A stretch of 64,000 bases of DNA from Brachybacterium alimentarium. GTDB lineage: Bacteria; Actinomycetota; Actinomycetes; Actinomycetales; Dermabacteraceae. A program made the translations under genes and the position numbers. The stretch lies in NCBI RefSeq assembly GCF_002332425.1, contig NZ_NRGS01000005.1, positions 408,114-472,113 of the forward strand, in the 5' to 3' direction. The notes under the pieces were generated by a model. The model worked only from the letters and a program-made list of their open reading frames with translations, was not told where the DNA came from and ran no database searches. Position 1 is the first letter of the stretch. Each line of letters starts with the position of its first letter. Below are positions 35 to 4,705 of this stretch, piece after piece.

Positions 35-763
35 ATGACGGCCATTCCGGACTCCCCTGACGCGTCCGCGCCCACCGACGCCCTCCCACTGCGCACGACC
101 ACCCTCCTGCTCGACATGGACGGGACCCTCATCGACTCCGGCCCGGCGGTCGAACGCGCCTGGAACACGCTGCTGCGCGAGCTCGGCACGGATCTCACGT
201 TCGGCGCGGCACAGCACGGCCGGCCTGCTCGCCAGGTCCTCGCCGAGCTGATGCCCGAGCTCGATGAGGAGCAGCTGGCGCGGGCGCACGACCGGATCGA
301 AGCCCTCGAGATCGCGGACGTCGACGCGATCCTCACCCTCCCGGGCACCGAGCGCCTGCTGCGGGAGCTCGACGCCGCCGCCGAGCAGCTCAACCGTCCC
401 ACCTGGACCATCGTCACCTCCTGCACCGCTGGGCTGTTCGAGGCCCGATGGGCCACCACGGGGCTCCCGGCGCCCGCGCAGAGGGTCACGGCCGATCAGG
501 TCACCCACGGGAAGCCCGATCCCGAGCCGTACCTGCTGGGCGCCGAGCGTCTTGGTGTCGCTCCCGAGCGGACGATCGTCATCGAGGACTCGGTGGGCGG
601 TCTGCACTCCGGGGCCGCAGCCGGGGCCCGCACCATCGCGGTGACCAGCACCACTCCCGCCGCCGATCTCGCTCCGCTCGCGGATGCCCTGGTCACATCC
701 CTGGATGACCTGGAGATCACTGTCGACGGCGAGGATCTGGTCCTCTCCCGCCGAGGTAGCTGA
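35..763 (+). CDS. HAD-superfamily phosphatase (subfamily IA)
   Basis: A 242-residue haloacid-dehalogenase-type hydrolase, probably acting on a small phosphorylated metabolite such as a sugar phosphate or phosphoglycolate; the substrate cannot be read from sequence. Motif I is DMDGTL at residues 27-32, where the first Asp is the nucleophile. The Ser/Thr motif II lies near residue 127 (VTSCT). The motif III lysine is K160 in GKPDPEPY, and motif IV is IEDS at 183-186 followed by a glycine-rich GLHSGAAAGA stretch typical of the IA group. A helical cap lies between motifs I and II. The start ATG follows a weak purine stretch only 34 bases into the window, so upstream context is missing. The length is normal for the family. 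It precedes asnB on the same strand with a 164-base gap, so co-transcription is uncertain. Confidence 0.85.
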   Translation: MTAIPDSPDASAPTDALPLRTTTLLLDMDGTLIDSGPAVERAWNTLLRELGTDLTFGAAQHGRPARQVLAELMPELDEEQLARAHDRIEALEIADVDAILTLPGTERLLRELDAAAEQLNRPTWTIVTSCTAGLFEARWATTGLPAPAQRVTADQVTHGKPDPEPYLLGAERLGVAPERTIVIEDSVGGLHSGAAAGARTIAVTSTTPAADLAPLADALVTSLDDLEITVDGEDLVLSRRGS

Positions 764-927
764 ACCTCACGCCGCGCCTGTCGATCAGCGCCTGATCGCG
801 TTGATAAGCTCGGGCGGCCGATCCCGTGCCGCGCGATCTCACGGGTGCCCAGAGGCTCCGGTGCCCGCGTCGACCAGACGCGTCTCCACCGTGGATCGCA
901 GCCGTCCCCCTCGAAAGGACTCGTCCC

Positions 928-3711
928 ATGTGCGGAATCTCCGGCAGCTACGGATTCGGCGCTGACACCGAGGGCATCGCCCGCCGGATGAACAGCGCCC
1001 TGGCCCATCGGGGCCCGGACGGTGAAGGGATCTTCGTCGACGGGGAGACTGGTCTCGCCCATCGTCGCCTGGCGATCATCGACGTCGCCGGCGGCGCACA
1101 GCCGATGACGAGCGCCGACGGCCGCTACACGATCGTGTACAACGGCGAGACCTACAACTACCTCGAGCTGCGCGACGAGCTCGAGGCCCTCGGCCACACC
1201 TTCCGCACCGACTCGGATACCGAGGTGCTGCTCGAGGCGCACGCCGAGTGGGGGACCGCCGCCTACGACCGGTTCAACGGCATGTTCGCCTTCGCGATCC
1301 ACGATGCGCAGACCGGGACCGTCACCATCGCCCGCGACCACTTCGGCATCAAGCCCCTGTACTACTGGATCGATGAGCACGAAGACGCTGACGCTGAGGC
1401 AGTGGGCCCCAAGGTGCTCTTCGGCTCCGAGATCCGCTCGCTGCTGGCGGCAGGCCAGTTCGAGGCCGCGCCGGACGACCGCGCCGTCTACCGCTATCTG
1501 AAGTTCCGCGTCCAGGACGACGACTCCCAGACCTTCTTCCGCGGCGTGCGGCGGCTCATGGCCGGCGAGATCCTCGAGATCCGCCCCGACGGCACCCGGG
1601 TCGCCCCCTTCACCCGCCTGCAGGAGGAGCTGCGCGAGATCGCCGCGCGCCCCAGCCGCCCCTACAGCGAGCAGGTCGTGGACGAGTACCGCGAGCGCTT
1701 CCACGAGTCGATCCGGATGCGCCTGCAGTCCGAGGTCCCCGTGGGCACCTCGCTCTCCGGCGGTCTGGACTCCTCCGCGGTCGCCGCCGTGATCGCGCGT
1801 CAGCTGCGCGAGCAGCCGCAGGACGAGAGCTTCAGCGCCGTCGGCAGCCGCCAGAACACCTTCTCGGCCGTCTTCCCGAACTCCTCGAACGACGAGGAGG
1901 CGTACGTCGACAAGCTGCTCGACGACAACGCCGGCCAGATCACCGCCCACAAGATCCACCCTCAGCCGGAGGCGTTCCTCGAGGACCTGCGCGACTTCGT
2001 GCGCACCCAGGAGGAGCCGATCATCTCCACCGGCCCGTACGCCCAGTATGCGGTGATGCGCGAGGCCAGCCAGCACGTCACCGTGCTGCTGGACGGCCAG
2101 GGCGCCGACGAGATGATGGCCGGGTACAACCCGTACTTCTACGTCTACCTGCGCCAGCTGCGTCGGCAGAAGCGGTTCAAGGATCTCGCCAGCGAGGTCG
2201 TGGGCTCGCGCGACATCCTGCGCAAGCTCGCGAAGTCGAAGTACTCCGGTCGCACCTCGGTGCCGATCGAGGCGCTCCTGAACTCCGGTTTCGTGGCCGA
2301 GCACAGCTCCGAGAAGGTCTCCTCCGTCCAGGACGACCTCAAGGAGCGTCTGCTGGAGGACACCTTCCGCCACTCCCTGCCCTCGCTGCTGCGCTACGAG
2401 GACAAGAACACGATGCGCTTCAGCATCGAGGGTCGCGTGCCGTTCGTGGACAAGGAGCTGCTGAAGTTCCTGTTCTCGCTGGACGAATCCGCGATCATCC
2501 ACGACGGCTGGAACAAGCGGATCCTGCGCGAGTCGATGGACGGGATCCTGCCCGACATGATCTCCAAGCGTCGCAACAAGATCGGCTTCACCACCCCCGA
2601 GGGGGAATGGTTCCGCACGATCGCCCCGCACCTCATGGAGATCTTCACCTCGGAGTCCTTCGCGAGCCGCCCCTACTTCGACGCCCCCAGCGTCGTGGCG
2701 CTGTTCGAGGACTACATCGAGAACCCCGGCAACCACGGCACGATGATGTTCTGGCGCCTGCTGAACGTCGAGCTGTGGATGCGCACCTTCTTCGACGACG
2801 CCGAGAACTCCTCGCGGGCGCTGAGCGATGACGCGGCCGCGCAGGAGCAGGCGGCGCTGAGCGTACCGGTGGCCCAGGTCGCCGGCACCGACGCCGACAC
2901 GAGTTCCGCGAGCGATGTCGTCGAGCCCAAGAGCGACTATGTCGCCAATCCCGGCAAGGAGCTCGACCTGGTCTCCGAGGCCGACGGCCGCACCTGGCGC
3001 CGCCTGCCGCTGCAGACCGAGCTGGTCTCCCGTGAGGACGACATCGTCTCCCTGGTCCGCGAACGCGTCGAGCGCTTCGCCGCGTCCCTGCCCGAAGGCA
3101 CCGTGCCCGTCGGTGCGCAGTGGTACTTCGTGATCAGCGAGAAGATCATCGCGATCACGCAGGGCCGGTCCTGGTTCACCTGGGAGATCAGGCCCCGCCG
3201 GTCCGCGAAGGTGCTCAGCCGCTTCGTCACCCGCACCCCGGCCGGCATCGGTCTGGGCGATCCGACCACGATGGAGCTCGCCATCCAGGAGGTCGGCCTC
3301 CCGCGCGTGGTCGCCGCCTCGGCGGCCGGTGCGGCCGGCAAGGTGATCGGCAAGCGGGGCCTGTTCTACGAGGTCGTGGGGGCGAACGTGCGCGCGATCG
3401 ACGGTCCGACGCCGTACTCGGCGTTCCCCTCGAACGTCTCCGCGAAGCTGCCCCCGAAGGACCCGGACGCGGTCTCCGCGAAGATCTCCGCGGCGATCCG
3501 CGGGGCGGACATCCCGGCAGCGCTGCGCGATGCCTTCGTGGGCACTGTCGTGATGGATGCGAACGACATCGGTCGCAACGTCCTGGGATCGGACGTCGCC
3601 ACGGAGAACGCTCGGCTCGAGGCGACGTTCGCGGACAATCCCCTCGGCCAGGGCCGCCAGCGCACGCCGCTCGCGATCCTCGTCGATCTCGGACCCGCGA
3701 CACGGCGCTGA
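928..3711 (+). CDS. asnB: AsnB-type asparagine synthetase fused to an F420-0:glutamate ligase-like domain
   Basis: A 927-residue protein, about 290 residues longer than usual actinobacterial AsnB. Residues 1 to about 627 form a glutamine-hydrolysing asparagine synthetase. Cys2 right after the initiator Met is the glutaminase nucleophile, which fixes this ATG as the start even though the frame is open upstream to 826. A YNGETYNY motif and the ATP-pyrophosphatase loop SGGLDSS at 277-283 follow. After a linker rich in Ala, Asp and Ser (about 628-675), residues 676-925 resemble the CofE-like F420-0:gamma-glutamyl ligase family. The matching parts are VISEKIIAITQGR near 735, RFVTRTPAGIGLG, GANVRAIDG, and LPPKDPD at 841-847, which corresponds to the L-P-x-D-P-D signature of that family. 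No stop or frameshift separates the two parts. The amidation role (aspartate to asparagine, or another carboxylate) is known for the family. The function of the C-terminal domain is inferred and unproven. Confidence 0.85.
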   Translation: MCGISGSYGFGADTEGIARRMNSALAHRGPDGEGIFVDGETGLAHRRLAIIDVAGGAQPMTSADGRYTIVYNGETYNYLELRDELEALGHTFRTDSDTEVLLEAHAEWGTAAYDRFNGMFAFAIHDAQTGTVTIARDHFGIKPLYYWIDEHEDADAEAVGPKVLFGSEIRSLLAAGQFEAAPDDRAVYRYLKFRVQDDDSQTFFRGVRRLMAGEILEIRPDGTRVAPFTRLQEELREIAARPSRPYSEQVVDEYRERFHESIRMRLQSEVPVGTSLSGGLDSSAVAAVIARQLREQPQDESFSAVGSRQNTFSAVFPNSSNDEEAYVDKLLDDNAGQITAHKIHPQPEAFLEDLRDFVRTQEEPIISTGPYAQYAVMREASQHVTVLLDGQGADEMMAGYNPYFYVYLRQLRRQKRFKDLASEVVGSRDILRKLAKSKYSGRTSVPIEALLNSGFVAEHSSEKVSSVQDDLKERLLEDTFRHSLPSLLRYEDKNTMRFSIEGRVPFVDKELLKFLFSLDESAIIHDGWNKRILRESMDGILPDMISKRRNKIGFTTPEGEWFRTIAPHLMEIFTSESFASRPYFDAPSVVALFEDYIENPGNHGTMMFWRLLNVELWMRTFFDDAENSSRALSDDAAAQEQAALSVPVAQVAGTDADTSSASDVVEPKSDYVANPGKELDLVSEADGRTWRRLPLQTELVSREDDIVSLVRERVERFAASLPEGTVPVGAQWYFVISEKIIAITQGRSWFTWEIRPRRSAKVLSRFVTRTPAGIGLGDPTTMELAIQEVGLPRVVAASAAGAAGKVIGKRGLFYEVVGANVRAIDGPTPYSAFPSNVSAKLPPKDPDAVSAKISAAIRGADIPAALRDAFVGTVVMDANDIGRNVLGSDVATENARLEATFADNPLGQGRQRTPLAILVDLGPATRR

Positions 3712-3729
3712 GCCGGCCGGAGCCTGCAT

Positions 3730-3735
3730 TAGGCT
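3730..3735 (+). promoter_or_regulatory. Candidate -10 box of dapA
   Basis: TAGGCT matches the actinobacterial TANNNT -10 pattern. It predicts a transcript start near 3742 and a leader of about 25 bases that keeps the Shine-Dalgarno GGGAGGAG in front of the dapA ATG. No convincing -35 is visible. Confidence 0.45.
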
Positions 3736-3766
3736 CCAGGGATCAGGACAGTTCCGGGAGGAGACC

Positions 3767-4705
3767 ATGACCAGCACCGACCTGCGCCCCGCGCGGCCCT
3801 TCGGCGCGGTGGGGACCGCTGTGGTCACCCCGTTGACCGAGGACGGCCACGGAGTGGACCTCGACGCCTCCCAGCAGCTCGCCGTGCACGTGAGCGAGCA
3901 CGGCAACGACCTCATCGTGGTCTCCGGCACCACAGGCGAGGCCCCTACGCTCACGGACGTGGAGAAGATCGAGCTCTCCCGGGCCGTACGCGATGCCGTC
4001 GGCCCCGAGGTGCGGGTGGTCGCCGGCGTGGGCACCTACGACACCGCGCATTCGATCGATCTCGCCCGCGCCCATGCGGATCTGGGCCTGGACGGGCTGC
4101 TGGTCGTCACCCCGTACTACTCCAAGCCCAGCCAGGCCGGGGTGATCGCTCACACCACCGCGATCGCCGACTCCACCGACCTGCCGGTGATGCTCTACGA
4201 CATCCCGAGCCGGACGGGCACCGCATTGTCCTACGAGACGCTGCTGCGGCTCGGTGAGCACGACCGGATCCTCGCGGTGAAGGATGCCAAGGGCGACCTG
4301 CAGCAGGCCAGCCGGATCATGGCCGAGACGGGCCTGGCGTACTACTCCGGCGAGGACGCCCTGAACCTCCCGTGGCTCACGATCGGCGCCGCCGGCCTCG
4401 TCTCCGTGGTCGGTCAGGTCGCCGGCGAGCTCGAGCGTCTCATGCTCGATGCTGTGGACCGTTCCGATCTCGCCGGTGCGCTCGACGCCCACCGTCGCCT
4501 CGTCCCGCTGGTCGACGCGATCATGGCCAAGATGCCCGGCGCCGTGGCGGCGAAGGCCGCCCTGGCCCTGCAGGGCGTGCTGCCGCACGCCGCGATGCGC
4601 GGGCCGCATGTCCCGGCGGACACCGACCAGCTGCGTGCGCTCGCGGACGCGATCGACGCGGCCGACGGCATTCCCTCGTGCGACCCCACCCGCGCCTCGG
4701 TATGA
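3767..4705 (+). CDS. dapA: 4-hydroxy-tetrahydrodipicolinate synthase
   Basis: A 312-residue aldolase-type enzyme that condenses pyruvate with aspartate semialdehyde, the first committed step of the diaminopimelate/lysine pathway. The Schiff-base lysine is K172 in AVKDAKGD. Catalytic Tyr144 lies in MLYDIPSRTG, and the GTTGEAPTL pyruvate-binding loop is near residue 50. The ATG at 3767 was chosen because GGGAGGAG lies 4-11 bases upstream and the protein then has the usual family length; the open frame upstream to 3557 overlaps asnB. The stop overlaps the start of the RNase J gene by four bases (ATGA), implying translational coupling. A dapA-rnj pair is conserved in Actinobacteria. Together with dapF at 17.1 kb it supplies the meso-diaminopimelate used by MurE in this window. 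Confidence 0.95.
   Translation: MTSTDLRPARPFGAVGTAVVTPLTEDGHGVDLDASQQLAVHVSEHGNDLIVVSGTTGEAPTLTDVEKIELSRAVRDAVGPEVRVVAGVGTYDTAHSIDLARAHADLGLDGLLVVTPYYSKPSQAGVIAHTTAIADSTDLPVMLYDIPSRTGTALSYETLLRLGEHDRILAVKDAKGDLQQASRIMAETGLAYYSGEDALNLPWLTIGAAGLVSVVGQVAGELERLMLDAVDRSDLAGALDAHRRLVPLVDAIMAKMPGAVAAKAALALQGVLPHAAMRGPHVPADTDQLRALADAIDAADGIPSCDPTRASV

Follow-up and report, generated by a model that had tools for sequence, protein, structure and literature searches.

In Brachybacterium alimentarium, a single gene encodes an asparagine synthetase (AsnB)-type amidotransferase fused to a C-terminal domain (C domain) with the predicted fold of CofE, the F420-0:glutamate ligase. The gene lies in a 64,000-nucleotide stretch of contig NZ_NRGS01000005.1 (positions 408,114 to 472,113), the whole of which is called the window here. 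The C domain is the selected core of the fusion, and AsnB is most likely an optional partner. We give about even chances to the reading, guided by the modelled fold, that this domain is a nucleoside triphosphate- and metal-dependent amide ligase acting on a carboxylate other than F420, and that AsnB is its old but losable partner. Slightly short of even are the chances of the wider reading, an undescribed system of an AsnB-type amidotransferase and a non-F420 CofE-fold ligase, which would make an amide-linked metabolite or wall part, would have been exchanged between Actinomycetota and Patescibacteria, and whose amidotransferase half would have died in place several times within a polypeptide that stayed under selection. 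This in-place death of one enzyme half is the most surprising feature.

The frame is open without interruption from ATG 928 to the stop codon at 3709-3711. An earlier note on this DNA had read it in the same way, from the glutaminase Cys2 and SGGLDSS into the C domain, and the three C-terminal motifs that it listed (VISEKIIAITQGR, GANVRAIDG and LPPKDPD) are all present in the translation. A sequencing error or frameshift joining two separate genes at the linker is excluded, because the same fusion recurs in many independent assemblies, from actinobacteria and from Patescibacteria. At least 531 relatives were confirmed in named genomes, and the best 80 of these, which include Brachybacterium, Dermabacter, Intrasporangiaceae, Dermacoccaceae, Actinomycetaceae, Actinopolymorpha, Saccharibacteria, Roizmanbacteria and others, were kept. 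In close relatives the two enzymes are usually fused: 74 of the best 80 carry AsnB-like sequence in the C-domain frame, five have the C domain alone, and one (L066) is cut by a contig end.

The AsnB-like half of the window protein scores 419.2 bits against TIGR01536 (cut-off 267.1) and also matches PF13522, PF13537 and PF00733, the glutaminase matches covering residues 30-173 and the Asn_synthase match residues 253-619. Cys2, which we take to be the glutaminase nucleophile of AsnB enzymes, is intact, as are the YNGE, PP-loop and GADE motifs; by its sequence, this half is an intact glutamine-dependent AsnB-type enzyme. It is the sole AsnB match over the TIGR01536 cut-off in the genome. The intact motifs are shared with AsnB/LtsA-type amidotransferases, but the fusion subclade, which is decayed in several lineages, has a loop EEPxISTGPYAQY (slightly altered in L213 and L215) where four other AsnBs have (D/E)EPxADxSAxPT, in a comparison made without an LtsA sequence. 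E. coli D320 and R325 are, as we read it, the Asp-binding residues that would tell an asparagine-forming AsnB from the subtype amidating meso-diaminopimelic acid; at their positions the half has Glu and Ser, but the other AsnBs compared also lack the Arg. The N-acetylglutaminylglutamine amide pathway presumably also pairs an AsnB-like amidotransferase with an amide ligase, one that we take not to be CofE-like; the window protein scores 304.8 bits against its family TIGR03104, below the cut-off of 570.1.

The C domain resembles CofE at the level of fold and superfamily. Depending on the segment, it scores 18.9-23.7 bits against PF01996 (E 1.1e-3 to 3.8e-5; curated cut-off 25), and this sub-threshold match is backed by the family as a whole: PF01996 is matched at E <=1 by 54 of the 55 members of an alignment made from 54 of the 80 named-genome loci and the window, the window included (best 4.6e-11). 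Profile-profile comparison of the C domain with CofE/FbiB sequences gives a probability of 90% (E 1.4e-6, 160 columns), and the predicted structure has CofE as its best-matching fold, far above the next unrelated match. On the other hand, TIGR01916 gives no match to the window protein at E 1; hhalign of the family alignment with the single CofE of the same genome finds only a 21-column match at 0.9%; and PDB sequences searched by phmmer and profile yield no CofE, the one result being an unrelated minibinder (E 0.81). A Patescibacteria relative (L209, 6076-7488) passes PF01996 with 37.8 bits, unlike the window domain; its C domain is fused to adenylate kinase (PF00406), directly downstream of a SecY-like gene (by eye).

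Among the positions inspected, E63, R72, G100, F138, D150, D202, N204, N229, T238 and P239 (domain numbering) are invariant in 84 of 84 domains. D202 pairs in the profile alignment with D150 of the TDTN motif of CofE, where D109 and D150 are presumably metal ligands. These two labels were not found in the main text of PMC10861534. According to that source, R234 and a domain-swapped hairpin of CofE touch F420. R234 has no counterpart in the C domain, because the profile alignment extends no further than residue 221 of CofE; following TDTN, some 28 residues of CofE are unmatched, a stretch that may correspond to the hairpin region. In turn, the family conserves a block around GIGLGxPxTMxLAI (consensus) to which nothing in CofE corresponds in this alignment. 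Compared with CofE/FbiB (PF01996, TIGR01916; PDB 2phn, 7uld), the domain lacks the TIGR01916 match and the F420-contacting tail and adds a block of its own, and its carriers mostly lack cofH. Of the CofE-type assignment in the earlier note, the fold stands and the typical F420-0 ligase does not.

A divergent second CofE that lengthens or edits the γ-glutamyl tails of F420 would account for the predicted fold, and a canonical CofE is also encoded on another contig of the same genome (TIGR01916, 188.4 bits; cut-off 180.65). The earlier note had asked which other F420 genes the genome holds: cofH has no match in it, and a CofD-family match is left unassigned. Among 38 carriers, cofH is over the cut-off in one, reaches 249-255 bits in two more (the three genomes being G547, G083 and G069) and stays at or below 33.3 bits in the remainder, so that 35 carriers, including the window's genome and all 28 Patescibacteria carriers tested, lack a convincing cofH. 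With the missing TIGR01916 match and the unmatched tail, a true F420 ligase is rejected as the leading explanation and is very improbable; the C domain is probably not an F420 enzyme. The canonical CofE (G000:C3:94143-94733; L001 946-2190, - strand) is apparently an orphan F420 gene beside a WhiB-like gene (by eye).

CofE relatives with a task other than F420 are documented in the FolC2 group (COG1478; Chlamydia CT611, Lactobacillus reuteri folC2; TIGR04132). A COG1478 member substitutes for FolC in E. coli (PMC1971073) and a CofE relative is required for folate in L. reuteri (PMC5061717). If the C domain were a folate γ-glutamyl ligase of this kind, with AsnB as an incidental partner, it could fill a gap in the 22 of 28 Patescibacteria carriers that have no FolC over the cut-off (six have one), and one Patescibacteria member weakly matches TIGR04132 (E 4.6e-4, 19.7 of 350 bits). 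However, the window protein has no TIGR04132 match at E 1, no folate gene is recognised by eye beside the C-domain gene in the loci viewed, and all ten actinobacterial carriers tested have FolC over the cut-off, which is why the role known from Chlamydia and L. reuteri fails for actinobacteria. Replacement of FolC is therefore disfavoured and a folate ligase in general distinctly unlikely; the C domain is probably not a folate enzyme.

The two halves of the protein have had different fates. Motifs were counted in the 72 of the 80 named loci with frames of at least 600 codons, the Cys2 region being cut or split off in L097, L102 and L111. Both Cys2 and the PP-loop are kept in 57 fusions, two (L057, L058) keep Cys2 with an altered PP-loop, and ten have neither Cys2 nor an intact PP-loop. 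The Asn of the glutaminase YNGE motif is further lost in nine of the 57 motif-intact fusions, namely eight of the Terrabacter type and L105. In the C-domain tree (all trees being quick searches with SH-aLRT support only and midpoint roots), the decayed state requires seven changes, at least six of which are forced by starred branches. Decayed sequences from Fodinicola and from metagenome-assembled genomes are neighbours of the C-only Actinopolymorpha in this tree, consistent with decay and subsequent loss.

The ratio of nonsynonymous to synonymous substitution rates (dN/dS; Nei-Gojobori, nine chosen pairs, with dS of 1.3-1.8 in two) separates the two halves. For the AsnB half, three intact control pairs give 0.16, 0.24 and 0.18, three pairs that include decayed Brachybacterium give 1.02, 1.15 and 0.90, and three pairs drawn from the other decayed forms give 0.25, 0.62 and 0.40, whereas in the C half of the same nine pairs it stays at 0.05-0.30. 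Since the ratio is near 1 in Brachybacterium and 0.25-0.62 elsewhere, constraint on the AsnB half is largely lost in two Brachybacterium species, with that on the C half kept, and is only relaxed in the Dermabacter type. No other AsnB is over the cut-off in five of eight decayed genomes examined and three of five C-only named genomes, and none is over it in eight of eight genomes of family f19 and 12 of 16 C-only Patescibacteria. Such repeated loss, often with no other AsnB, suits an optional amidation or a replaceable supply.

The AsnB half might instead serve mainly as a scaffold or pseudoenzyme, regulating the C domain or keeping it stable. Decayed halves do retain long open frames (at least 460 codons) before the C domain, the three Dermabacter-type pairs are still constrained, and of the 15 columns that are invariant in the AsnB alignment, eight fall within the last ~100 residues, adjoining the C domain. 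Nevertheless, most fusions keep both catalytic motifs, the two decayed Brachybacterium halves look near neutral and C-only forms exist, and a role mainly as scaffold is unlikely.

A functional link between the enzymes is supported by the conserved fusion, by operon pairs and by a dedicated AsnB subclade. Of the 20 Patescibacteria loci in which the C-domain gene is separate, four have a codirectional AsnB immediately upstream, at most 14 bp away or with the genes overlapping (L198, L207, where AsnB is split, L213 and L215), making AsnB the most recurrent operon partner in these loci. The order LemA - HtpX-like - AsnB - C domain - gatC - gatA of L213 is that around the fused Roizmanbacteria genes (by eye). 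Another fusion, L144, whose neighbours are histidine-biosynthesis-like genes (by eye), does not group with the main set of fused genes in the C-domain tree. AsnB was probably a neighbouring gene first and was fused later.

In the second AsnB tree, a single branch (SH-aLRT 99) unites the AsnBs of the fusions, of the operons and of L144, and 13 of 15 separate AsnBs of carriers fall outside it. This tree comprises 17 of the 33 rows of alignment A3, nine of the 15 separate AsnB loci used for the first tree (two of the nine gave no row) and eight further loci; L216, L219, L222, L223, L224 and L227 were omitted, the first five of which lie outside the partner branch in the first tree. That wider tree, from which ten partly or wholly decayed halves were omitted and in which 11 of the 15 separate AsnBs yielded a row, several on very long branches, has the same partner branch (SH-aLRT 95), with long-branch rows outside. 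L227, which falls inside the branch, stops close to the end of its contig and probably represents the missing half of a fusion. The two separate AsnBs inside the branch belong to Microlunatus speluncae, whose fused half is decayed, and to Actinopolymorpha rutila, which has the C domain alone. Unlinked AsnBs of the partner subclade (L221 in G534, L229 in G541) persist where the genome's own AsnB half is decayed or absent. A second AsnB-like match adjoins the fusion gene in L067 (6221-8080) and L093 (3218-4342); the L067 copy is on a long branch outside the partner subclade in the first tree. Hence the linked pair of the earlier note holds, but its sequential action of two activities on one substrate is weakened, because ten AsnB halves lack their motifs and many genomes have the C domain alone, often with no AsnB over the cut-off; its interpretation also tied the pair too closely to F420-type chemistry and took too simple a view in supposing that both activities are required throughout.

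In CofE, an acyl phosphate is formed and then attacked by an amino acid (PMC10861534). By analogy, the C domain would phosphorylate a carboxylate, an amino acid would attack to give an amide, and the AsnB half would supply asparagine locally or amidate the substrate or product of the ligase, a step that would be dispensable for the cell. Several points weigh against this CofE-like ligase with a losable partner. The window domain misses both the Pfam and the NCBIfam thresholds for CofE, so the ligase chemistry would rest on the fold and a few conserved residues, and CofE D109 could correspond to either of two residues, N145 according to the profile or D150 as judged by eye. In decayed forms other than those of Brachybacterium, the AsnB half does not evolve neutrally and may therefore still serve structurally. 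Another AsnB is over the cut-off in three of the eight decayed genomes, and one is over it in four of the 16 C-only Patescibacteria.

As for the acceptor, our leading guess is one of envelope or peptidoglycan type. In a special form of the CofE-fold amide ligase, the C domain would attach a dicarboxylic amino acid to a precursor of the wall and AsnB would amidate it, forming a cross-bridge pair. The D-Asp ligase and AsnH of lactic acid bacteria are, we assume, an analogous pair. Wall types of the carrier groups differ widely, which speaks against such a pair. Dermabacteraceae are described with A4γ peptidoglycan (PMC6090031), which makes a wall acceptor testable, and AsnB homologues amidate meso-diaminopimelic acid (PMC8554201). 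Envelope genes also adjoin the family: Wzy_C genes touch the C-domain gene in two Patescibacteria loci, VanW, GT4, MurJ and a sugar-transfer ATP-grasp protein were confirmed at one locus each, and an mraZ-like gene or apparent mraZ start is seen in two of 20 loci (by eye). But these neighbours are scattered and were counted without a background frequency, so that they are a hint only, and this too weighs against an envelope acceptor. No conserved neighbourhood is general across the loci viewed, the neighbours varying among lexA-, guaA-, gatC-, rpoD-, mraZ- and ribosomal-protein-like genes (mostly by eye). The cross-bridge pair is a doubtful candidate. In f19 genomes (L027, L028, L030, L145), the C-domain gene stands alone and shares four bases with the end of an RpoD-like gene (by eye). 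A gene of the sugar-transfer ATP-grasp type faces it in L027, L030 and L145; PF14397 was confirmed in that of L145 alone, and the L027 and L030 genes are similar in sequence (by eye). A distant branch of lone C domains, family f38 (L138, L141, L142, L143), has three copies in genome G274; the C-domain genes of L138, L141 and L143 each converge on a MurJ-like gene and overlap it, MurJ being confirmed for L141.

Matches occur in 16 of 149 genomes of the window's order (12 fused, four with the C domain alone), in 16 of 394 of its class, and in 26 of 379 of a Patescibacteria sample (two weakly), 20 of the 26 in open frames of 213-293 aa and two in frames of ~890 aa. In the C-domain and AsnB trees alike, sequences of Saccharibacteria and of certain other Patescibacteria are interspersed with actinobacterial sequences, for example beside Brachybacterium and Helcobacillus, which suggests gene transfer between the two phyla. 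A mobile gene is rejected: a search of 72,556 plasmid records gave no match to the C domain, and none of 43 stretches taken as viral-contig candidates encoded a relative. The AsnB half matches 493 plasmid records, its best place in each at <60% identity. A defence system is likewise rejected, as the whole protein gives no PADLOC match at E 0.1.

A literature search found nothing on this fusion or family, which is weak evidence since subscription journals were mostly outside it; the documented CofE-fold roles that it found are F420 and, in a few bacteria, folate. Retention in Patescibacteria carrier genomes of ~0.5-1.5 Mb that lack a convincing cofH implies a further product. The automatic names 'coenzyme F420-0:L-glutamate ligase' and 'asparagine synthase' would probably mislead here. 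The family offers a natural series of operon, fusion, in-frame enzyme death and C domain alone.

Table. Features of the fusion gene (window coordinates) and decayed AsnB halves among its relatives
Feature	Position	Strand	Basis
Whole fusion gene, 927 aa and stop	928..3711	+	reading frame
Putative Shine-Dalgarno-like GAAAGGA, 8 bases 5' of ATG 928	913..919	+	read directly
AsnB-like half, about aa 1-625	928..2802	+	PF13522, PF13537, PF00733, TIGR01536
Cys2	931..933	+	sequence motif in AsnB half
PP-loop SGGLDSS	1756..1776	+	sequence motif; role presumed
Variable linker, aa 626-675	2803..2952	+	alignment and linker search
Predicted CofE-fold C domain, aa 676-927	2953..3708	+	PF01996, profile-profile, predicted structure
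Asp877 (domain residue 202), CofE D150 in T-D-T-N; same letter in 84/84 domains	3556..3558	+	alignment
Decayed AsnB halves: L037, L043, L063, L068, L070, L075, L079, L084, L087, L099			

On the - strand, opposite the fusion gene, positions 496-4035 of the window contain an open frame of 1179 codons, which is probably a by-product of high GC content.
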